Below are positions 3,759 through 35,660 of a stretch of 35,955 nt of DNA, one piece after another (the stretch's first letter is position 1; the number at the start of each line of letters is the position of its first letter). Source of the DNA: Erysipelotrichaceae bacterium. Lineage in GTDB: Bacteria; Bacillota_I; Bacilli_A; Erysipelotrichales; Erysipelotrichaceae. The notes below the pieces were generated by a model, which was given only the letters and a program-made list of their open reading frames with translations, was not told where the DNA came from and made no database searches. Where the stretch lies: contig JAFRJA010000013.1 in the NCBI GenBank assembly GCA_017432545.1, positions 1-35,955 on the forward strand. The letters run 5' to 3'. Position numbers and translations under genes: made by a program.

Positions 3759-4883
3759 CTATTCCACCCCTTTCAGAACGAAAGGTATATTTCCTTTTTT
3801 TATGTATTTCAACAAGAGCCTATAATCGTCATCCACATCACCTATCACGTTTGCACAGTTAAATGAGTCAAGATCTTTCAATATGATTTGTATCTCTCCT
3901 TCATATTGGGCACTTAGTTCATTGTCGATCGTAACGCTGCCAAAAGGTCTTTTTTCGATGTTGAACGGTTTACTTTTGATTCCCCTATATTTACAGCATC
4001 GAATCAAATAATCCGGTTCATCAAATCGGTTGTACTGAATGATTTCCTTGCGTAATATCTCTTTTAAAGAGACAGGAACATTATGCCGATATCGAAACAG
4101 AATTTGCACAGGTTCATTTATGCATGAGTCTCTCAATTCGTTAAGTTCATCGTCCGGGACCAATGTATCGCCAAAGAAAATGTCTTCAATACCGGAACAT
4201 AACAATATCTTAGAAGCAACGTATGGTCTTATATAACGCAGAGATTCAACGCTCATGACACCGTGGCTTTCTTTATGTAGAAAGGAATAGGCTTTTGTTG
4301 AAGATATAAAAGCTGAGACTTTTATTCCATATTCTTTTAAAAATGAACACGTCTCTTCAATCGTTTTTATAGAAATGCCCGTGTCCTGGCGGGGATAATA
4401 GTTGAAGCAAGCTTCAACTTTGCGAAGATCCCCGTTTTCATTAATCGTCTTGATTGCTTCCAGATATTTATTTTTATATGCAGGAAGATCGATGCGGATA
4501 TCGGAAGCATTGATCTGCAGGATCAGGTCAGATGGATGTTTTGTAATATATGCGAGTTCATCGGCTTTTAATCCGCCGTCGATCCTTATTCCATAGACTC
4601 CGGCATCATGCAGATAATTAAGCGTATTATCCAAAGAACCAAAATAAGCAATGACGTTATCATTAAAATCGCAATATACTTTCAGATCCTTCTTTGCTGC
4701 AAACGCAATTGTCTGCCAGAAAATCGGATCATCAGGATTTGCGGCACCATCGAAGTGCTGATCAGCCAATATCATAGAAGTAAACATCTTTGTAAATCCT
4801 GACTCTGCAGCTTTACAGATATATTCTTCTGTTTTTGTTTTATCTGTAAGATCCGGAAAAACGCTGATACCAAATTCATGCAT
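3759..4883 (-). CDS. MupG-like 6-phospho-N-acetylmuramidase (DUF871 family)
   Basis: A cytoplasmic TIM-barrel protein of 374 aa, the usual family length. The start MHEFGISVFPDLTDKT is the typical DUF871 opening, followed by FTKMFTSMI, YCDFNDNV, GIRIDGGL, CFNYYPRQDTGIS (highly typical) and a C-terminal barrel-like domain from about 260 on. Characterised S. aureus MupG hydrolyses MurNAc-6-phosphate-GlcNAc after PTS uptake in cell-wall recycling. Here a PTS EIIC, an RpiR/MurR regulator and a phospho-sugar context support the same class of role. No MurQ etherase is present, so another phospho-disaccharide is possible. It is seven bp downstream of the RDD-like gene in the same operon. The name is by family; the substrate is inferred. 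Confidence 0.82.
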   Translation of the reverse strand: MHEFGISVFPDLTDKTKTEEYICKAAESGFTKMFTSMILADQHFDGAANPDDPIFWQTIAFAAKKDLKVYCDFNDNVIAYFGSLDNTLNYLHDAGVYGIRIDGGLKADELAYITKHPSDLILQINASDIRIDLPAYKNKYLEAIKTINENGDLRKVEACFNYYPRQDTGISIKTIEETCSFLKEYGIKVSAFISSTKAYSFLHKESHGVMSVESLRYIRPYVASKILLCSGIEDIFFGDTLVPDDELNELRDSCINEPVQILFRYRHNVPVSLKEILRKEIIQYNRFDEPDYLIRCCKYRGIKSKPFNIEKRPFGSVTIDNELSAQYEGEIQIILKDLDSFNCANVIGDVDDDYRLLLKYIKKGNIPFVLKGVE

Positions 4884-5425: not shown

Positions 5426-6700
5426 TTACTCTTCACCGTTTTCTTTCTTTAACTGTTCCTTATCCCAAGCCCTTACAAACGGCCACCAGATGACAAAAGC
5501 GATAAAGAAATTGATCACTTGAAGTATAAAACCGCCAATCTTTCCACCGGTAGTCAGATAGCCGCAGAGGAAATAAGGAATCGTCCAGTTGATCGAAATG
5601 CCACAGGGTTTCGGGAAGATATTCATGGACATTGTAATATAGGTAAATATGGCAATGACCAACGGAGCACAAATATATGGGATCATCAAGAACGGATTTA
5701 AAACAACAGGCATACCAAAGACGACCGGCTCGTTAATGTTGAAGATTCCGGGAGCAAGAGATAATCTTCCGACTTGTTTTCCAATCTTGCTTTTAGCAAA
5801 AACACAGAGCCAGATAACAAGCGGAAGCGTAGCTCCCGAACCACCGATCCACAGGAAGTTTTCTACAAACGATGTAGTAACGGCATAAGGGATCGCCTGT
5901 CCGGCCTGATATGCCGATAAGTTTGCCATCTGAGCATTGGACCAGATTGGACCCATGATTGAAGATACGACATTTGAACCATGGATACCAAAGCTCCAAA
6001 GGATCTGTTCTACCAGCGTTGTTGCAATGACTCCGCCTAAAGATGTGCCGGCTTTTGTCAGCGGTGTACCTACAACTGTCAAAATCGCTGTGGAAAAATC
6101 ACCATATGGCGTCTTTGCAAAAATGAATTTCACGATTAAAGCGAGAACAACAATGATCAGACCGGGTATCAGTGCCGTAAATGAACCGGATATTGCTGGC
6201 GGTACGCTTTCCGGAAGCTTGATCACAAGATCTCGGTCAAGAACAAACTTGTAGACATATCCCGCAAGAAGAGAAATTACCAAGGCTGAAAACAGATAGC
6301 TTGTTCCAAGATAGTCCGCATTCCAGCCCCACATATCGGAATCAAAGGTCGTAACGATCAGGTATGCGGCAATCGCCATCACTCCTGCCGGATCGCCTTT
6401 ATATCCATAACTTTCAACCAGCGACTTTGCAACACCAAATGAAGCAATAAGCGAGATGATCGACATCGTTGCAGGAAAAACCGTACTCCATACAAGTTTA
6501 TCGCCCCACCCTTCGCCAAACATACCGGCCATAAATGACTGATAAGCATCTGACGGGAAATCAGAAATGATAATGAATAAGGATCCGATGATCATTAGTG
6601 GCATCGCCATAACGATACCGTCACGAAGCGCACACAGAATCCTTGAATTTGCGATTCTGGTTGCAACAGGAATAAACTTTTCTTCAAACCATTTTTTCAT
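5426..6700 (-). CDS. PTS sugar transporter subunit EIIC, lactose/cellobiose (CelB) type
   Basis: A 424-aa inner-membrane permease that translocates and presents a sugar for phosphorylation. Family signatures are the N-terminal AMPLMIIGSLFIII segment, TAYLIVTTFDSD-type loops, IHGSNVVSSIMGPIW, GSGATLPLVIWL and the hallmark NINEPVVFGMPVVLNPF near 320-336. Around ten membrane segments are visible. It is the first gene of a minus-strand operon, with GAAAGGGG as ribosome site before the ATG. No EIIA or EIIB is encoded next to it, so those must come from elsewhere. With MupG downstream and an RpiR/MurR regulator divergent, the cargo is probably a beta-linked amino-sugar disaccharide. That is an inference. 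Confidence 0.88.
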   Translation of the reverse strand: MKKWFEEKFIPVATRIANSRILCALRDGIVMAMPLMIIGSLFIIISDFPSDAYQSFMAGMFGEGWGDKLVWSTVFPATMSIISLIASFGVAKSLVESYGYKGDPAGVMAIAAYLIVTTFDSDMWGWNADYLGTSYLFSALVISLLAGYVYKFVLDRDLVIKLPESVPPAISGSFTALIPGLIIVVLALIVKFIFAKTPYGDFSTAILTVVGTPLTKAGTSLGGVIATTLVEQILWSFGIHGSNVVSSIMGPIWSNAQMANLSAYQAGQAIPYAVTTSFVENFLWIGGSGATLPLVIWLCVFAKSKIGKQVGRLSLAPGIFNINEPVVFGMPVVLNPFLMIPYICAPLVIAIFTYITMSMNIFPKPCGISINWTIPYFLCGYLTTGGKIGGFILQVINFFIAFVIWWPFVRAWDKEQLKKENGEE

Positions 6701-6882
6701 ATTGCTTTACCCCTTTCAAAATAATGATTTGCACAAAACAAGAAAACAGAAAAAACACTTTAAACAAACGAATATAATTATTGATCTCTCTTCTGATTTC
6801 ATTTTTGTTCCAAAGCATTGTTATTTCAATATTTCAAAAACAAAGAGGCAGGAGTGACCATGAAATGTTATTTGTAACTATT

Positions 6883-10455: not shown

Positions 10456-11403
10456 CTAGAAATTAAAATCTTCTTTGCAGAATTCGATATTTGTACTGCC
10501 AAGAGCTTCTTCCAGCTGCGGTATCGTGACCGTTCCCACCAGAGGAATGATCGGGAAATCCTGATAGTAATAGAAAGCCAATAGGACCTGAGTGATCGTG
10601 CAGTTGTATTTTTCGCAAAGATCATTGATCTTCTTAGCTACTTCCAGATTTTTCGGCGTGTAATATGGACTTTCCTTTACCGCTTCTTCACCTTTGTTTT
10701 TAAGGTTGTGGAAGAAACCGCTACACAGGCCGAAATAAGGCATCGGTGTGTTGTTGGAGTTGCGATAGAAATCCAAAGCTTCGGCATCAACCGTCACCAT
10801 TGTTTTATCAGGGAAGGGTTTCATGTATTTTGCTCCGGCATTATAAAGGTTCTGATTGGCGATAAAACCCGAATATCCGTGCTGTTTTGCGTATTCGTCA
10901 GCTTCTTTCATACGCTCTGTTGTCCAGTTGGAACAACCGTAATAGCGGATCATGCCTTTTTTTCTGAAACCTTCCATTCTTTCGATAAGTTCGGCAACGC
11001 TCTGGTTCTTATCATCACGATGATAAAAGTAAATGTCTATCGTATCGATGCCCAGTTTGTTCAGGCTCAGATTGATATCATATTCCATATCAGCCTGTGA
11101 CATTCTGCTGACATCCATACTATCCTTATCCGGATGTCCGCCTTTTGTCATGAGAACGATCTCATCTCTTCTGCCGCATCTTCTCAGCCAGTCACCGATG
11201 ACTCTTTCGCTTCTGCCTATCTCGCCTGGTGCCCAATCGTAGTAAACTCTGGCGGTATCGATCAGATTTCCGCCGTTATCAACGAAGTAATTCAGCAGAT
11301 CATCTGCATCTTTGCCATCATAATCCAGACCGGCATTGACTGTACCGAATGCAAATGGGCTTACCTTAAGATCGGTTCCTTTTAATAAGATGTCATGTTT
11401 CAT
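10456..11403 (-). CDS. Aldo/keto reductase
   Basis: A 315-aa NADPH-dependent oxidoreductase of the AKR superfamily. It begins LKVSPFAFGTVNAGLDYDG. The catalytic tetrad positions are DTARVYYDW (Asp, Tyr), LMTKGGHPD (Lys) and IDIYFYHRDD (His). RYYGCSNWTTERM and the C-terminal IPLVGTVTIPQLEEALG (cofactor loop) follow. It could oxidise or reduce a deoxy-sugar, sugar lactone or lactaldehyde from the rhamnose-type pathway. Its ATG overlaps the stop of the ASRT-family gene (ATGA), so it is translationally coupled. The substrate cannot be read from sequence. Confidence 0.92.
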   Translation of the reverse strand: MKHDILLKGTDLKVSPFAFGTVNAGLDYDGKDADDLLNYFVDNGGNLIDTARVYYDWAPGEIGRSERVIGDWLRRCGRRDEIVLMTKGGHPDKDSMDVSRMSQADMEYDINLSLNKLGIDTIDIYFYHRDDKNQSVAELIERMEGFRKKGMIRYYGCSNWTTERMKEADEYAKQHGYSGFIANQNLYNAGAKYMKPFPDKTMVTVDAEALDFYRNSNNTPMPYFGLCSGFFHNLKNKGEEAVKESPYYTPKNLEVAKKINDLCEKYNCTITQVLLAFYYYQDFPIIPLVGTVTIPQLEEALGSTNIEFCKEDFNF

Positions 11404-29049: not shown

Positions 29050-29175
29050 TAACTATGATATTATTATCCGGTCATAAAGATGAAATTGCTGATTATCAAC
29101 CCGGGTTCAACTTCGACAAAAATAAGTGTTTATGAAAATAAGGATCTGATATATTCAAGATCATTTTCATGATGA
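29050..29175 (+). repeat. Repeat copy A: 5' end of a butyrate kinase gene, truncated
   Basis: From 29050 to about 29175 the DNA resembles 30736-30859: the upstream AACTATGATATTATTATC..., then ATG at 29080 reading MKLLIINPGSTSTKISVYEN and KDLIYSRSFS before a stop at 29172. Only 30 residues remain of the phosphate-binding N-terminus of a butyrate kinase. It is a decayed partial copy of the pseudogene at 30763. The two copies bracket the ATPase gene. Confidence 0.7.
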
Positions 29176-29249: not shown

Positions 29250-29329
29250 TTGAAAAAGTGTCATAAATGGGGAAATAAGAATTGAAAAAGTGTATATAAA
29301 TTAATAAAAATAATTGAAAAAGTGTCATA
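29250..29329 (+). repeat. Three direct repeats, TTGAAAAAGTGTCATA, 32-bp period
   Basis: TTGAAAAAGTGTCATA occurs at 29250-29265 and 29314-29329, with TTGAAAAAGTGTATAT at 29282. The starts are exactly 32 bp apart, about three helical turns. The last copy supplies the -35 (TTGAAA) of the predicted promoter at 29314-29342. Evenly spaced copies suggest a protein-binding site array that controls the ATPase gene. Confidence 0.85.
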
Positions 29330-29342
29330 TCTATTCTATACT
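29314..29342 (+). promoter_or_regulatory. Predicted promoter of the DUF4143 ATPase gene
   Basis: TTGAAA (29314-29319), 17 bp, TATACT (29337-29342). The -35 lies inside the third repeat copy, so the repeat-binding factor would compete with or recruit RNA polymerase. Confidence 0.7.
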
Positions 29343-29376
29343 GATTTTATTCCCGACAGAAGAGGAGGAAAATGCT

Positions 29377-30714
29377 GTGTTAAAGCGCAAAGCGGAAGAA
29401 AGAATCAGAGATTGGATAGAAGGATCAAAGAAAGCCTTGCTTGTAAGCGGAGCCAGACAGGTGGGGAAGACATATTCCATCAGGAAATGTCTGACAGAAG
29501 TTGGTTGCAACTATCTGGAAATAAACCTGATCGAACAGCCGGAACTGATTCCTGTATTTGAACGATCCATGTCAGTTGATGACCTGAGAGTCAATCTGTC
29601 TGCAGCGACAGGTTATTCGTTTGCTAAGGGAGAAAGCATACTTTTTATTGACGAGATCCAGGAAGTCAAAGATATTGTGACACGAATCAAATTCTGGGTG
29701 GACGAGGGCAGTTTTCGGTACATATTGAGCGGATCGCTTCTTGGCATTGAATTAAAAGGTCTGCGCTCGGCACCTGTGGGATATCTGGAAGAGATAAAAA
29801 TGTATCCGCTTGATTTTGAAGAGTTTTTAATAGCTTCCTCAGTCAATGAAGACGTCCTTGAGCACCTTCGTCGCTGTTTTGAAGAAAGCAAGCCTGTCGG
29901 AGAACTGATTCATGACAAAATCATGAAACATTTCCACAGATACCTCGTTGTCGGGGGGATGCCAGATGCCGTAAGGGAATATGTGGAATCCGGTGACATC
30001 TCCAAAGTTACGATCATACAACAGAATATCAGGGAATTATACAAGCTTGATTTCACAAAATATGAAGCAGAAGACAAGAAACTCATGATCATTTCGGTCT
30101 ATGAGACAATGCCGTCCCAGCTGCTCAAACAGAACCGCAGGTTCAATTATGCCGATATAAAAAAAGGTTTGCGCTTTGAAAAACTGGAAAGCAGTTTTTT
30201 GTGGCTGACTTCGGCAGGAGTTGTGATCCCAACCTATAATGCAACCGAACCAAGGGCATCCTTAAGTCAGAATCAGAAAAGCAGCCTGCTTAAGCTCTAC
30301 TCATCGGATGTCGGTCTTCTGACAGCGAGTTACGGAAATGCCCTCAGGACAAAAATACTTGTGGCTGATGACAAAGTAAATCTTGGAGGGATCTACGAAA
30401 ACGCTGTTGCACAGGAGTTGAATACTCATGGCTTCCAATCCTGGTTTTACAACAGCCATAAGAACGGAGAACTCGACTTCGTTATCGAGGAGGATAACGA
30501 AGTTGTCCCTATCGAAGTAAAGAGCGGGAAAGACTACTATGTTCATTCTGCAATTCCAAAGGCGATAAACAATCCGGAATATGAAATAAACAAAGCTTAT
30601 GTCTTTACAAATTATGATGTCGAAACAGATGGAAAGATAGTGTATCTGCCGGTTTACATGGCCATGTTCATCAATGATGATACGATTCTTCCTGTTCTTG
30701 ATCCAATTATCTGA
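29377..30714 (+). CDS. AAA ATPase with DUF4143 / PD-(D/E)xK-like C-terminus
   Basis: A 445-aa protein of the AAA/DUF4143 group. Walker A is LVSGARQVGKTYSIR (about 22-36), Walker B/sensor is SILFIDEIQEVKD followed by the family's YILSGSLLGIEL and EIKMYPLDFEEFL. The middle has YLVVGGMPDAVREYVE, and the C-terminus has KNGELDFVIEEDNEVVPIEVKSG, a D-x-n-E-V-K arrangement like PD-(D/E)xK nucleases. The frame is open from 29314 (TTG), but that lies inside a repeat. The GTG at 29377, 9 bp after GAGGAGG, gives the normal N-terminus (LKRKAEERIRDWIEG). Such ATPases are widespread, poorly understood, and often found in accessory DNA. The function is unknown; a defence or addiction role is a guess. Confidence 0.88.
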   Translation: MLKRKAEERIRDWIEGSKKALLVSGARQVGKTYSIRKCLTEVGCNYLEINLIEQPELIPVFERSMSVDDLRVNLSAATGYSFAKGESILFIDEIQEVKDIVTRIKFWVDEGSFRYILSGSLLGIELKGLRSAPVGYLEEIKMYPLDFEEFLIASSVNEDVLEHLRRCFEESKPVGELIHDKIMKHFHRYLVVGGMPDAVREYVESGDISKVTIIQQNIRELYKLDFTKYEAEDKKLMIISVYETMPSQLLKQNRRFNYADIKKGLRFEKLESSFLWLTSAGVVIPTYNATEPRASLSQNQKSSLLKLYSSDVGLLTASYGNALRTKILVADDKVNLGGIYENAVAQELNTHGFQSWFYNSHKNGELDFVIEEDNEVVPIEVKSGKDYYVHSAIPKAINNPEYEINKAYVFTNYDVETDGKIVYLPVYMAMFINDDTILPVLDPII

Positions 30715-30735
30715 AGGAGACCACAAACAAAAGGG

Positions 30736-30859
30736 AACTATGATTATTATCTGGTCACTGACATGAAATTGCTGATTATAAACCCTGGTTCGACCTCGAC
30801 AAAAATAAGTGTTTATGAAAATAAAGATCTGCTATGTGAAGACAGCGTTTTTCATGATG
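30736..30859 (+). repeat. Repeat copy B (5' end of the butyrate kinase pseudogene)
   Basis: Homologous to 29050-29175: shared upstream AACTATGAT-TTATTATC and the first about 30 codons, MKLLIINPGSTSTKISVYEN then KDL, up to TTCATGATG. The two copies differ at scattered positions, so the duplication is not recent. Confidence 0.7.
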
Positions 30860-31334
30860 CACCGGTATTGCTCAAATATATGTCAATAATCAGATACCTT
30901 TCAGAAAGGAAGTTATCCTGAACTTTTTGGCTGAAAACGATATCGATATAAAAGATCTTGATGTTTTTGTAGGAAGGGGTGGCAGTGCCGTTCCCGTCAG
31001 ATCCGGGGTAATGGAAATAAACGAACTATTATATGGCGATACGATAAGTGCCAAAGGCGGCAGTGAACATCCTGCCAAACTGGGCGTTATGCTGGCATAT
31101 GAATTCGCCTTGGAAAACAATAAAAAAGCCTATACTCTTGATCCTACCAATGTCGATGAACTTTGTGATGAAGCCAGACTGACGGGTATTAAAGGTTTAT
31201 ACAGGAATGCCCAGGCTCATGTCTTGAATCAGAAGGCCGTTGCCCGAAAACACTGTCTTTTGCATGACCTTGATTATGATGACTGCGATCTGATCGTCTG
31301 TCATATTGACGGAGGCATAACAGGAATCCTTTAA
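30763..31334 (+). pseudogene. Butyrate kinase, frameshifted and 3'-truncated
   Basis: The frame opens with MKLLIINPGSTSTKISVYEN and SVFHDAPVLLKY, then shifts near 30882. In the next frame it continues as NNQIPFRKEVILNFLAENDI, VFVGRGGSAVPVRSGVMEIN, SEHPAKLGVMLAYEFALENN, VDELCDEARLTGIKGLYRNA, HVLNQKAVARKHCLLHDLDY and ends at CHIDGGITGIL. These are consecutive conserved blocks of butyrate kinase (acetate/butyrate kinase fold), which makes butyrate and ATP from butyryl-phosphate. About half the protein is missing after GGG(I)-like IDGGI, so it is inactive. No phosphotransbutyrylase gene is beside it. The GTG-started ATPase at 29377 lies between this gene and a partial copy of its own 5' end. Confidence 0.85.
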
Positions 31335-31407
31335 CAGCTGAATATGAACTCATCAGTGATGAAAAAGGTTTTCTGGTCAGCAGAAAGAAGGATAACGAAG
31401 GATAACG

Positions 31408-31566
31408 ATGAAGCTGGGTGTGAAGGAATATGAACAAAAGAGGATATTGAATAAAACAGGAGGAATGCCTGTGACTTTTGATGATGATTCTCCGGAATTA
31501 AGTGAAAAACAGCCGATGGAGTTCAGAAGGATATTTGATGGTAATAGATCAGAAAAAGTGTATTAG
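31408..31566 (+). CDS. Small ORF with antitoxin-like segment (52 aa), possible remnant
   Basis: ATG 31408 (AAGGA 6 bp upstream) reads MKLGVKEYEQKRILNKTGG and MPVTFDDDSPELSEKQPMEF, RRIFDGNRSEKVY. The DDDSPELS-EKQ-EF segment resembles the short stretch before the DNA-binding part of BrnA/CopG-like antitoxins, but no RHH or HTH part remains and no toxin gene is seen. The last codons overlap GAAAAAGTGTATTA (31552-31565), a copy of the 32-bp-period repeat upstream of the other ATPase gene. It may be a shortened antitoxin or chance; low confidence. Confidence 0.3.
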   Translation: MKLGVKEYEQKRILNKTGGMPVTFDDDSPELSEKQPMEFRRIFDGNRSEKVY

Positions 31567-31674
31567 CGCCAGAATAAGCGATAGATAACGGCGCTAAGTG
31601 TCTAAAAAAATGACTTAGCGCCAGAATTAACGATTGATTACGGCGCTAATGTGAAATATAATATAGTTAGCGCC
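31563..31674 (+). repeat. Iterated TTAGCGCC repeats, 52-bp period
   Basis: Two complete units, TTAGCGCC-N19-GGCGCTAA (31563-31597 and 31615-31649), and a third half unit TTAGCGCC (31667-31674) start exactly 52 bp apart. Each full unit is an inverted repeat whose inner 19 bp are also similar (AGAATnAnCGATnGATnAC). The promoter of the next gene is embedded: -35 in the second unit's spacer, +1 near the third half-site. Confidence 0.88.
31634..31662 (+). promoter_or_regulatory. Predicted promoter of the second ATPase gene
   Basis: TTGATT (31634-31639), 17 bp, TATAAT (31657-31662). The right arm of repeat unit 2 lies between -35 and -10. The third half-repeat covers the predicted +1 (about 31668). 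Confidence 0.75.
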
Positions 31675-31701
31675 GTAATTATGTGTTTTGGAGGAGCAAA
31701 A

Positions 31702-33120
31702 ATGTTGATAGGTCGGGAGAAAGAGCAAAAAGTATTGGAAGAAGCATACCTTGCAGAAGAATCCAAATTTGTTGTTGTTTATGGCAGACGCAGAGTAGGA
31801 AAAACTTATTTGATCCGTGAAAGCCTAGAGAAAAGATTTGTATTTCAGCATGCAGGATATTATGGAGGGAAACTTTCGGATGAGCTATTTGAATTCTGTG
31901 CTTCCCTTAGGGAATATGGTTTGCATGACTTTTCAAGGCCAAAAAACTGGTTGGAGGCATTTGAACTGTTAAAAGAGCTGATCCGCAATTCATCAAAAAA
32001 AAGGAAAGTTATTTTTCTGGATGAGTTATCATGGATGGACACCAAAGGGAGTGATTTTATCATGGCTCTTGAAGGTTTCTGGAACAACTGGGCTTCTGCC
32101 AGAAAAGACGTTTTTCTGATCGTTTGCGGTTCCGCAACTTCCTGGATGCTGAACAAAATCATTCATAATAAAGGCGGGTTGTACAACCGATTGTCTTACC
32201 GGATACACCTTCAGCCATTTACACTCAAAGAATGTGAAAGATATCTTATCTCCAGAAACATTATTTTAAATCGCCATCAGATCCTGGAGTGCTACATGAT
32301 AATGGGTGGCATTCCATACTATTGGAGCTTTCTTGAAAAAGGACTGAGTTTGTCTCAAAATATCGACCGTATCTTTTTTGCCAAAGATGCGCCATTAGAG
32401 CAGGAATTCGACTATTTGCATGCCGCATTATTTGCAAAACCTGATCTTTATATCAAAATCGTGTCCACTTTAGGAAGAAAGAAAGCAGGCATGACCAGAG
32501 AAGAACTTTTAAAAGAAACGAATTGTGCGGATTCAGGCAATTTTTCTAAACGCCTGGAGGAACTGGAAAGCTGTAGTATCATTCGAAAATATAGTCAATT
32601 TGGAACAAAAGAAAGAAATGCAATATATCAGCTGATCGACAATTTTTCTCTTTTCTATTACAAGTTCCTGAAAGAAAAGCCAACTGATGAACACTTCTGG
32701 AGTAATCAGGTAAATACACCGGTCGTAAATACATGGTGTGGTTTGGCTTTTGAACGTGTCTGTTTGGAACACGTTTCTCAAATAAAACAGGCTTTAGGGA
32801 TTTCCGGGGTATTAAGTGAGACTTATTCCTGGTTTTGCAAAGAGGATCAGGCAAACGGCATTCAAGGCTCACAAATCGATTTATTGATCGTGAGAAAAGA
32901 TCAGGTAATAAACTTGTGCGAGATGAAATTTTCCTCAAAAAAATATGCGGTTACAGAAAAGATCGATAATGAAATCAGTAAAAAAATATCAGATTTCAAA
33001 GCGCTCGCCAATTCTCGCTACGCTATTCATGTGACATTTATTTCGCCTTATGGAGTAACTGATAATTCATATACAGGAAATATTCAAAATATCATAACTG
33101 CTGATGACTTATTTTCCTGA
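31702..33120 (+). CDS. AAA ATPase (archaeal ATPase family), PD-(D/E)xK-like C-terminus
   Basis: A 472-aa protein of the archaeal-type ATPase family. MLIGREKEQKVLEEAYLAEE opens the domain. Walker A is FVVVYGRRRVGKTYLIR (about 24-38), Walker B is RKVIFLDELSWMD, the sensor is FLIVCGSATSWMLNKII, and the family block YMIMGGIPYYWSFLEKGLS is present. A winged-helix part follows (TREELLKETNCADSGNFSKR). The C-terminus has GSQIDLLIVRKDQVINLCEMKFS, a D-x-n-E-x-K nuclease-like motif (DUF234-like). The open frame starts at 31651, but ATG 31702 with GGAGGAG is the real start. It shares the general architecture of the ATPase at 29377 but not its sequence. The role is unknown. Confidence 0.9.
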   Translation: MLIGREKEQKVLEEAYLAEESKFVVVYGRRRVGKTYLIRESLEKRFVFQHAGYYGGKLSDELFEFCASLREYGLHDFSRPKNWLEAFELLKELIRNSSKKRKVIFLDELSWMDTKGSDFIMALEGFWNNWASARKDVFLIVCGSATSWMLNKIIHNKGGLYNRLSYRIHLQPFTLKECERYLISRNIILNRHQILECYMIMGGIPYYWSFLEKGLSLSQNIDRIFFAKDAPLEQEFDYLHAALFAKPDLYIKIVSTLGRKKAGMTREELLKETNCADSGNFSKRLEELESCSIIRKYSQFGTKERNAIYQLIDNFSLFYYKFLKEKPTDEHFWSNQVNTPVVNTWCGLAFERVCLEHVSQIKQALGISGVLSETYSWFCKEDQANGIQGSQIDLLIVRKDQVINLCEMKFSSKKYAVTEKIDNEISKKISDFKALANSRYAIHVTFISPYGVTDNSYTGNIQNIITADDLFS

Positions 33121-33239
33121 GTATCAATAACATATTCCAAGAAATGCTAAACGTGCAGTAATTTTCAAATAGATTTTTCAATATGCTGATCGTCTTTCAT
33201 AGAATGATAAAGATAAACCGATAGAATTATAATGATATT

Positions 33240-34022
33240 GTGGAACATGAACATTTTGATCAGCTATTCATAAGATCCATTGCTCTTGATGACAGGCCGT
33301 TTAATAGAGATGAATACCTTAAAGAAATACCTGCCATAAAACAATTGGAAAAACAGGAACTTGTTTTTGATAAGAGAGTATCTTTTCTGATTGGGGAAAA
33401 TGGTACGGGGAAATCGACACTATTAGAAGCGATAGCTGTCGCCAGTCATTTCAATCCGGAAGGTGGTACGAAGAACTTTTATTTCTCCACCAGCAATTCC
33501 CATTCCGAGCTGCATGAACACCTTCTTTTAAGCAAGAGTGCTCATGAAAGGGATGGCTTCTTTTTAAGAGCGGAAAGCTTTTATAACGTAGCTTCCTATA
33601 TCGATGATCTGGATAAAGCGGGAGGTTTTGGTCCTCCCATCATTGACAGCTATGGCGGTGTTTCTCTTCATCTGCAGTCGCATGGGGAGAGTTTTCTGGC
33701 TCTGGTGAAAAACAGATTTGGTGGCAATGGCTTATATCTTTTGGATGAACCTGAGGCGGCTTTGTCACCAAGCAGGTTGATGTCGCTGCTGATAATGATC
33801 AACGATATCGCCAATGCCAATTCACAGTTTATTATTGCGACCCATTCACCGATACTGATGTCTTATCCTGATGCGGATATCTTTGAGCTTGATGATATTG
33901 GTATCAGAAAAGTCGAATACAAGGATACCGATCACTATAAGATAACCAAGGATTTCATTGAAAGACCGGATTATATGTATAGGCTGCTGTTTGAAAGCGA
34001 TAAAGAAAACGATGATAGGTAA
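33240..34022 (+). CDS. AAA family ATPase (ABC/SMC-type, AAA_21/AAA_23)
   Basis: A 260-aa ATPase. Walker A is FLIGENGTGKSTLLEAIAVA (about 48-67). The ABC signature-like SLHLQSHGESFLALVKNRF has the Q-S-H-G-E-S-F core, Walker B is GLYLLDEPEAALSPSRLM, and the switch His is FIIATHSPILMSYPDADIF. These make it a compact single-domain ATPase like those in OLD/AAA_21 groups, without an attached nuclease. It starts at GTG 33240, directly after TATAAT (33228-33233), so +1 would coincide with the start. No ribosome site is seen. It may be a defence or conserved housekeeping ATPase. Confidence 0.88.
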   Translation: MEHEHFDQLFIRSIALDDRPFNRDEYLKEIPAIKQLEKQELVFDKRVSFLIGENGTGKSTLLEAIAVASHFNPEGGTKNFYFSTSNSHSELHEHLLLSKSAHERDGFFLRAESFYNVASYIDDLDKAGGFGPPIIDSYGGVSLHLQSHGESFLALVKNRFGGNGLYLLDEPEAALSPSRLMSLLIMINDIANANSQFIIATHSPILMSYPDADIFELDDIGIRKVEYKDTDHYKITKDFIERPDYMYRLLFESDKENDDR

Positions 34023-34070
34023 ACCCGGAGTTTGCTTAAAAATGCGATAGTTGAGGTGCAGAAATAGGTT

Positions 34071-34129
34071 ATCTTCATAAATTTGACAAAACTATATTCA
34101 AAAATCTTCATAAAATTGACAAAGTCATA
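34071..34129 (+). repeat. Direct repeats, ATCTTCATAAA-(N)-TTGACAAA, 33-bp period
   Basis: ATCTTCATAAATTTGACAAA (34071) and ATCTTCATAAAATTGACAAA (34104) start 33 bp apart. Each carries TTGACA, a perfect -35 hexamer (34083-34088 and 34116-34121). No convincing -10 follows at 16-18 bp. They lie upstream of the AbiEi-like gene, the same layout as at 29250 and 31563. Confidence 0.75.
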
Positions 34130-34253: not shown

Positions 34254-34853
34254 ATGATAGTTACAACATCGATGCTGAAGCAACAATACGCGAATTATTC
34301 CAATCCTTTGGATAAGATTCGTCGTGATGCGAATCAGGGGATCATCTTCAGATTGAACAGGGGCTTGTATGAAACGGATCGGAGCACGGATCCTTATCTG
34401 CTGGCTGCTCCAATACTATCACCGTCATATCTGAGTTTCGAACTTGCGCTTTCTTATTACGGTCTGATACCGGAGAGAGTCTACGGGATCACATCGGCAT
34501 CTTTGCTTCAGAGAAAAAACAGGACGATCACAAATGTTTTCGGAAGATACGAATACAGCGATATTCCTCCGGCTGCTTTTTCTGAAGGGTTATGTTATAT
34601 CGGAGAAGGAGAGTATATTGTTAAGATCGCTTCAAAAGAGAAAGCAATCTGTGATTCTTTATATAAATGGCCGGTCGTTAACAGTTTAAGGGATTTACGG
34701 GAGCTGCTATTCGATGATAAAAGAATTGATGAAGAGGAATTTGCTTCCTGCGACTTTGAGTTGATGAAACGGCTGGCTAAGCTGTATCATCGCAAAAATC
34801 TGAAACTGCTGATAAAGCTGATCGAAAAAGATTACAGTTCTAGGGAGAGTTAG
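34254..34853 (+). CDS. AbiEi-like type IV toxin-antitoxin antitoxin/regulator, without partner
   Basis: A 199-aa protein that matches AbiEi antitoxins. The N-terminal wHTH (MIVTTSMLKQQYANYSNPLD, IIFRLNRGLYETD) is followed by the typical AAPILSPSYLSFELALSYYG, VYGITSASLLQRKN and RYEYSDIPPAAFSEG, then KIASKEKAICDSLYKW. Such proteins autorepress their operon and neutralise the AbiEii nucleotidyltransferase. No AbiEii gene follows, so it is an orphan or has another partner. The open frame starts at 34218; the ATG at 34254 has GGAGCAA in place. The direct repeats at 34071 could be its own operators, since AbiEi binds repeats. Confidence 0.75.
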   Translation: MIVTTSMLKQQYANYSNPLDKIRRDANQGIIFRLNRGLYETDRSTDPYLLAAPILSPSYLSFELALSYYGLIPERVYGITSASLLQRKNRTITNVFGRYEYSDIPPAAFSEGLCYIGEGEYIVKIASKEKAICDSLYKWPVVNSLRDLRELLFDDKRIDEEEFASCDFELMKRLAKLYHRKNLKLLIKLIEKDYSSRES

Positions 34854-35435: not shown

Positions 35436-35510
35436 ACCAGATGGAAGGTCGGTATCTGGTGCAGCTTCATAAGCTGTTTCAACAGGGTTCGACTCCCTGA
35501 TCTGGAACCA
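35436..35510 (+). tRNA. tRNA with CAU anticodon (Met or lysidine-type Ile), non-canonical D arm
   Basis: Anticodon arm GCAGC-TTCATAA-GCTGT, T arm CAGGG-TTCGACT-CCCTG and encoded CCA are clear. The acceptor pairs ACCAGAT with ATCTGGA, with an A-A mismatch at the first pair. The D arm is weak: three pairs (AGG/TCT) around a 6-nt loop TCGGTA, and the usual T8 is G. CAU could be Met, or Ile if the C is modified; the anticodon stem lacks the three G-C pairs of initiators. Confidence 0.7.
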
Positions 35511-35511
35511 T

Positions 35512-35585
35512 GGTTCTCTAGCCAAGAGGAAAGGCAAGGGTCTGCAACACCCTGATCGTGAGTTCGATTCTCACGGGAACCTCCA
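35512..35585 (+). tRNA. tRNA-Cys (GCA)
   Basis: A regular tRNA of 74 nt. Acceptor GGTTCTC/GGGAACC (one G-U pair), D arm GCC/GGC, anticodon arm AGGGT-CTGCAAC-ACCCT with GCA, T arm GTGAG-TTCGATT-CTCAC, discriminator T and encoded CCA. T at the discriminator is the normal identity element for Cys. One base separates it from each neighbouring tRNA gene. Confidence 0.9.
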
Positions 35586-35586
35586 T

Positions 35587-35660
35587 TGTCTTGTAGCTTA
35601 ATAGCAGAGCAGACGCCTTATAAGCGCCAGATCCCGGAGCATAACCGGGCAAGACGACCA
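35587..35660 (+). tRNA. tRNA-like gene with UAU anticodon (Ile), non-canonical D and T loops
   Basis: Acceptor TGTCTTG/CAAGACG (one T-G pair) with encoded ACCA. D arm GCT/AGC with loop TAATAGCAG, which lacks the GG pair. Anticodon arm GACGC-CTTATAA-GCGCC (one A-C mismatch), anticodon TAT. T stem CCCGG/CCGGG has the loop AGCATAA instead of TTCRANN. The usual D-loop/T-loop contacts are therefore absent. UAU is an uncommon bacterial Ile anticodon, since AUA is normally read by a lysidine-modified CAU tRNA. Confidence 0.65.

Follow-up and report, generated by a model that had tools for sequence, protein, structure and literature searches.

Introduction

Two ATPase genes in a window of 35,955 nucleotides from an Erysipelotrichaceae bacterium (the whole stretch of DNA analyzed here) are each preceded by short, regularly spaced words. 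What purpose do these words serve, and which protein recognizes them? The original prediction held that a DUF4143 ATPase gene, an archaeal-type ATPase gene and an AbiEi-like gene, regarded as unrelated, each lie behind their own direct repeats, and that the products silence their own genes through these repeats as in addiction modules. The two ATPases belong to PDC-S01 and PDC-S27, which are single-gene phage defence candidates in PADLOC (PMC12988326). PDC-S01 is reported to rank fourth in abundance among prokaryotic defence families and to be the single locus met most often in rumen genomes, and its experimental validation is pending (PMC12988326, PMC13356809). Here, we describe genomic evidence that this candidate anti-virus family, among the most common yet least understood in bacteria and archaea, usually has a private word array in its own promoter. 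This array is most likely a docking site through which, as we predict, the gene's own protein controls itself.

Repeats in the window

The features of the window are listed in Table 1. In front of the PDC-S01 gene, two exact copies of TTGAAAAAGTGTCATA enclose TTGAAAAAGTGTATAT at a period of 32 bp in both steps, and the unit common to all three is TTGAAAAAGTGT. The array scores p=0.005 (z 7.7) against 200 dinucleotide shuffles. The claim that three copies with a 32-bp period stand here is therefore correct, and the -35 hexamer of a good sigma-A promoter lies in the last repeat, as proposed. In a pattern scan of the 3.4-Mb genome, exact TTGAAAAAGTGTCATA was found only at this array, with one further site that has one mismatch.

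Table 1. Features of the two ATPase loci and the AbiEi-like locus, in window positions.
Feature	Positions	Strand	Evidence
PDC-S01 array unit 1, TTGAAAAAGTGTCATA	29250..29265	+	sequence, array score
PDC-S01 array unit 2, TTGAAAAAGTGTATAT, first 12 nt identical	29282..29297	+	sequence
PDC-S01 array unit 3, TTGAAAAAGTGTCATA; -35 hexamer formed by bases one to six	29314..29329	+	
PDC-S01 promoter -10 hexamer TATACT, 17 nt behind TTGAAA	29337..29342	+	sequence
DUF4143 / AAA_14 ATPase, PDC-S01 family	29377..30714	+	Pfam, PADLOC, AlphaFold2
PDC-S27 predicted operator half-sites 1 (TTAGCGCC, 31563-31570) and 2 (GGCGCTAA, 31590-31597)	31563..31597		sequence
PDC-S27 predicted operator half-sites 3 (TTAGCGCC, 31615-31622) and 4 (GGCGCTAA, 31642-31649)	31615..31649		sequence
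PDC-S27 -35 TTGATT, within the second palindrome (between half-sites 3 and 4)	31634-31639		
PDC-S27 -10 TATAAT (31657-31662) and half-site 5 (TTAGCGCC, 31667-31674)	31657..31674		sequence
Archaeal-type ATPase (PF01637), PDC-S27 family	31702..33120	+	Pfam, PADLOC, AlphaFold2
Two 20-nt direct repeats, period 33, upstream of AbiEi-like gene	34071..34123	+	sequence, p=0.04
AbiEi-like antitoxin gene without AbiEii partner	34254..34853	+	PADLOC AbiEi 8.1e-60

The promoter of the PDC-S27 gene had been described as carrying direct iterons with a period of 52 bp, with the -35 in the last full repeat. The period holds for the three copies of the 8-nt word TTAGCGCC, and the repeats are significant (p=0.005, z 7.1, dinucleotide shuffles), but two interleaved copies of its complement, GGCGCTAA, had been overlooked. 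Because the complements lie between the TTAGCGCC copies, the promoter contains five half-sites of alternating direction (steps 27/25/27/25) rather than direct iterons. The promoter, with 17 nt between its hexamers, is embedded in the repeats, but its -35 is inside the second palindrome and not in a last full repeat; the -10 sits between two half-sites. In the 3.4-Mb genome, the pattern GGCGCTAA-N17-TTAGCGCC matched this locus and one further site with two mismatches.

The two repeats in front of the AbiEi-like gene, ATCTTCATAAA(T/A)TTGACAAA, begin at 34071 and 34104, are 95% identical and lie 131-183 nt before the start codon, with no -10 behind the repeat. In most relatives in the order, an AbiEii nucleotidyltransferase gene lies directly behind the AbiEi-like gene; here, no ORF of more than 51 aa starts within 200 nt downstream. 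The 33-bp direct array was absent from eight relatives matched at full length, one of which has partly masked upstream DNA, and most of these relatives instead have a short inverted repeat close to the start. The repeats thus exist with the period claimed, but we rejected them as a third case of a PDC-S01-type array given the relatives without an array, the presence of just two copies and the p value of 0.04. A tRNA cluster (Met-Cys-Ile, the last with anticodon TAT) is located further downstream, at 35436-35660.

Domain architecture and fold relatives of the two ATPases

Pfam assigns AAA_14 and DUF4143 to the PDC-S01 protein of the window and ATPase_2 to the PDC-S27 protein, and the corresponding PADLOC models match both at full length (residues 1-434, E=2.4e-178, and residues 2-471, E=1.1e-196, respectively). 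AlphaFold2 models of the two (pLDDT 88 and pTM 0.89 for PDC-S01; pLDDT 91 and pTM 0.89 for PDC-S27) have the same order of domains: AAA+, winged helix and a PD-(D/E)XK fold. The winged helix had been anticipated and is present in both models; the genes had been called unrelated, and in this shared architecture the two ATPases are not. In PDC-S01, the domains span residues ~1-205, ~231-308 and ~336-430 (numbered from 29380), and the PD-(D/E)XK residues E340, E364, D366, E379 and K381 are invariant in 78 PDC-S01 sequences. In PDC-S27, the winged helix lies at ~247-311 and the PD-(D/E)XK fold at ~370-447.

A sequence search for solved relatives of the two ATPases gave none that were useful, and relatives were found only by fold. 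Both models are near SSO1545/PABY2304, the CED-4/NLR proteins and Orc1/Cdc6, and the matches to SSO1545-type, CED-4/NLR and Orc1/Cdc6 proteins span the AAA+ domain plus the winged helix. For example, the Orc1/Cdc6 structure 2qby_A matches the PDC-S01 model with Z 11.0 (214 residues, rmsd 5.3) and the PDC-S27 model with Z 13.7 (293 residues, rmsd 6.6). The NLR Rx1, which binds DNA, is a precedent for DNA recognition by such proteins (PMC4599002). In the annotated records examined, neither ATPase has a conserved toxin or antitoxin operon partner; the gene stands alone with varying neighbours, which leaves the addiction-module idea without support.

Arrays in front of PDC-S01 homologues

We examined the upstream regions of the best 80 relatives of the window PDC-S01 protein in genome_contigs, 78 of which were usable, with start codons assigned automatically. 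They come from Bacillota, Bacteroidota, Fibrobacter, Treponema, Bifidobacterium and other Actinomycetota, Akkermansia, Kiritimatiellae and two archaea; picked by similarity to the window protein, they cover its subfamily. A significant tandem array precedes the start codon in 65 of the 78, compared to 6 of 110 taxon-matched controls, which were neighbouring genes on the same DNA pieces (Mann-Whitney p=3e-26). At least three copies are present in 64 of the 65 arrays. The unit words differ from gene to gene, and the spacing is 32 or 33 bp in 145 of 155 steps. In a second set, from IMG/VR contigs, 17 of 22 PDC-S01 genes have a significant array, every one with a period of 31-34 bp; near-identical loci occur in both sets (L146/L147, L264/L265), so that the counts slightly overstate the number of independent cases. 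Arrays with p=0.005 were also found on Acinetobacter and Criblamydia plasmids and on one faecal phage contig. A first test had given median z values of 2.7 for the source genome (n=30), 5.9 for relatives (n=41) and 0.1 for controls (p=2e-9).

The array is not universal. A direct array was not significant in L136, L138, L140 and L167, members of the same subfamily, or in the distant homologues of Vibrio (L239), Fusobacterium (L241) and B. thetaiotaomicron (L234). At locus L171, a 33-bp array of palindromic words (GTGTATTTCAGATACA) precedes a control neighbour gene and not the PDC-S01 gene.

Unit words, promoter position and covariation with the protein

The typical array consists of three to five direct copies of a 14-16-bp word laid over the core promoter in steps of 32-33 bp, or three turns of B-DNA. 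Words as different as TTGAAAAAGTGTCA, GTATTTTTGACAAA, TTGGAAAAACGGACAAA, AAAACGGGGCAAAA and GAAAAACGTTACAAA recur at this constant step. Identity between loci is 55-78% in unit columns 0-13 and 31-35%, the background level, in the spacer, a contrast that is large though inflated by the choice of a unit frame that maximises matches. The -35 lies within a unit in 18 of 27 Bacillota promoters, where 8.8 would be expected. The original prediction called for constant-period repeats that overlap the -35 and change from subfamily to subfamily, and upstream of the DUF4143 homologues all three were found. Units occur 199 times inside promoters and four times in 409 kb of flanking DNA, against three for a reversed-word control. 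These counts and the pattern scans rule out the window repeats as genome-wide elements, an objection that had been raised in advance; the words stand at their own promoters.

Chance or functionless AT-rich low-complexity repeats would suit an AT-rich region in which some words are A-tracts, but this explanation, contradicted by the dinucleotide shuffles, the control genes, the second set and the fixed 32-33-bp step, is hardly credible.

The similarity of words tracks the similarity of proteins (Mantel r=0.40, p=0.002), also between different phyla (r=0.34, p=0.001), which indicates that array and gene travel together; as a linked array and gene that are inherited together would correlate even without contact, the result is consistent with binding. 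The association of the word with host phylum is weak (0.13 after correction for protein). For example, TATTTTTGACAAA-like words are common to members from Fibrobacter, Treponema and Clostridia. Among the protein columns that best follow the word, the winged helix contributes 17 of the top 40, compared to 75 of 381 tested columns (p=4e-4), an enrichment that is suggestive since related sequences are not independent. A sliding-window partial Mantel test gave weak peaks at 41-80 and 201-260.

Inverted repeats in front of PDC-S27 genes

A search of IMG/VR for PDC-S27 relatives by exact peptide gave none with a single sequence; with an alignment, relatives were found. None of 16 PDC-S27 members from IMG/VR has a significant 33-bp direct array. 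Inverted repeats are significant in 18 of 27 PDC-S27 homologues, compared to 6 of 60 controls and 3 of 29 PDC-S01 genes. The expectation of repeats upstream of archaeal-type ATPases is thus borne out, but in inverted rather than direct form. With direct repeats in PDC-S01 and inverted repeats in PDC-S27, two sister architectures have two operator symmetries. The direct repeats would fit a head-to-tail AAA+ assembly and the inverted repeats a dimer.

Proposed autoregulation and its alternatives

We infer that self-control by the encoded ATPase is the best explanation of the repeats. The array is very probably the PDC-S01 protein's own binding site, and the main outcome of this putative binding is probably repression. 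For the combined prediction, that PDC-S01 is a site-specific DNA-binding protein that targets the array in its own promoter and represses that promoter, we estimate a probability of roughly 0.6. Binding would occur via the Orc1/Cdc6-like AAA+/winged-helix module. Each word would take up one protomer, and the protomers, all on one face of the DNA, would line up head to tail in the manner of AAA+ assemblies. Such an assembly would cover the -35/-10 region and give cooperative negative autoregulation; it is from one protomer per word, three-turn steps and the overlap with the -35 and -10 that cooperative autorepression is predicted. Autorepression might keep a dangerous nuclease rare, and candidate signals for its release are infection, loss of the protein, if unstable, and ATP state. 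That the protein acts in anti-phage defence is a candidate role to which we give even odds. PDC-S27 may control itself in a like way, through half-sites whose inverted order is what two-fold symmetric binding would predict.

An extension of this model is that the array is both sensor and operator, and that an inactive AAA+ nuclease assembly is parked head to tail on a private address by its own gene. Phage replication or transcription would then strip or remodel the complex, so that the nuclease fires and the promoter opens. We consider this extension unlikely. If it were true, each genome would hold a set of nuclease-armed sentinels, orthogonal to one another and each with its own address, and the Orc1/Cdc6-ORB principle would have been put to use in immunity.

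Of similarly low probability is positive or switch-like autoregulation. In this case the array would be an enhancer-like platform for the ATP-bound protein, which would recruit RNA polymerase or activate it, and a trigger would set off a feed-forward burst. A precedent is IniR, an ATPase modelled on SSO1545 that activates iniBAC from just upstream (PMC5760070), and some PDC-S01 loci have an array whose last unit, at -68 to -82, is still far upstream of the start codon. However, a protein bound to a unit that contains the -35, as in most of the Bacillota promoters, should block polymerase, and a self-activating nuclease gene would need a further brake.

Two other explanations are more doubtful still. 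The arrays could be iterons of an origin or a mobile element, with an Orc1/Cdc6-like initiator or homing protein for which they are the replication or insertion site and the overlap with the promoter is secondary. This is suggested by the fold match of PDC-S27 to Orc1/Cdc6 with origin DNA (2qby and 2v1u, Z 13.5-13.7 over 289-293 residues), by haloarchaeal cdc6 genes, each dedicated to the diverged ORBs next to it (PMC3936714), and by the occurrence of the genes on plasmids and IMG/VR contigs. We find it improbable in view of an array that is one-sided and tied to the start codon and core promoter, of the many copies per genome (27 DUF4143 genes in the source genome) and of units that are almost absent outside the promoter. 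Equally improbable is a separate host regulator, such as a defence-island repressor, that binds the arrays and has the ATPase only as its target. Separate regulators of defence genes do exist, such as WYL-domain proteins (PMC9122601), but no regulator is regularly adjacent in the annotated records examined. Moreover, words differ between paralogues of one genome and are common to different phyla when the proteins are similar, and one regulator would be needed per gene.

Comparison with known systems

Self-control by PDC-S01 would resemble several described systems. Plasmid iterons and the DnaA boxes in the dnaA promoter are regularly spaced words whose initiator also controls its own gene, but no replication function is indicated for the PDC arrays. 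DnaA autoregulation is referred to in PMC3936714. AbiEi is likewise a defence-related protein that represses its own promoter via cooperative binding to repeats (PMC7319586); it uses 23-bp inverted repeats in a two-gene pair, whereas PDC-S01 is a single gene with three to five direct words at 32-33 bp. Orc1/Cdc6 proteins have the AAA+/winged-helix fold, and each gene has diverged repeats of its own nearby, to which its action is specific (PMC3936714), but ORBs flank an AT-rich origin, whereas the PDC repeats overlay a promoter and the PDC protein has a nuclease-fold domain. IniR, an ATPase of the same fold class, binds a promoter (PMC5760070), although it does so via a different C-terminal domain, controls iniBAC and has no nuclease domain described.

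The window proteins match the models of the PDC-S01 and PDC-S27 candidates, in which an ATPase is fused to a PD-(D/E)XK fold (PMC12988326); promoter repeats, present here, were not found described for them. The main text of that paper contains neither "promoter" nor "autoregulat". As the original prediction had supposed, we found no description of arrays before PDC-S01 or PDC-S27 genes in the open-access library that was searched.

Conserved in groups as far apart as Bacillota, Bacteroidota, Chlamydiota and archaea, the PDC-S01 array is a concrete molecular handle, which offers a DNA target and a binding domain, both predicted, and a geometry of one word per three helix turns. Its promoter is a ready-made reporter for a trigger search, and the many natural protein-word pairs with a fixed geometry are a data set for the winged-helix recognition code.

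Other repeats in the source genome

Upstream of many DUF4143 paralogues in the source genome, the promoter carries repeats of its own, either direct or inverted; in some distant clades, no repeat was detected upstream. The words differ between paralogues. One subfamily (L009, L010, L011) has CAAATCA-type units in steps of 22-23 bp, or two helix turns, and other clades (L004, L005, L020, L022) have palindromic putative operators at the promoter, e.g., TGTCGAATATA(A/C)TCGACA.

On either side of the PDC-S01 gene of the window, at 29081-29155 and 30764-31410, lies a copy of the 5' end of a butyrate kinase gene (MKLLIINPGSTSTKISVYENKDLL). The two copies have diverged, and the downstream one, a decayed remnant, stops short of the PDC-S27 promoter.

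A repeated sequence of ~150 nt ending in CCCCCCTATGGCACCA precedes several DUF4143 paralogues (L013, at 716-890, 3804-3978, 6632-6816 and 10546-10730; also L007, L015 and L038). A tRNA, tmRNA and Rfam search of this sequence gave no match, and a tRNA or Rfam origin was rejected. It has promoter-like and hairpin-like parts followed by a terminator-like hairpin, and is possibly a small RNA of a new kind or a cassette boundary.
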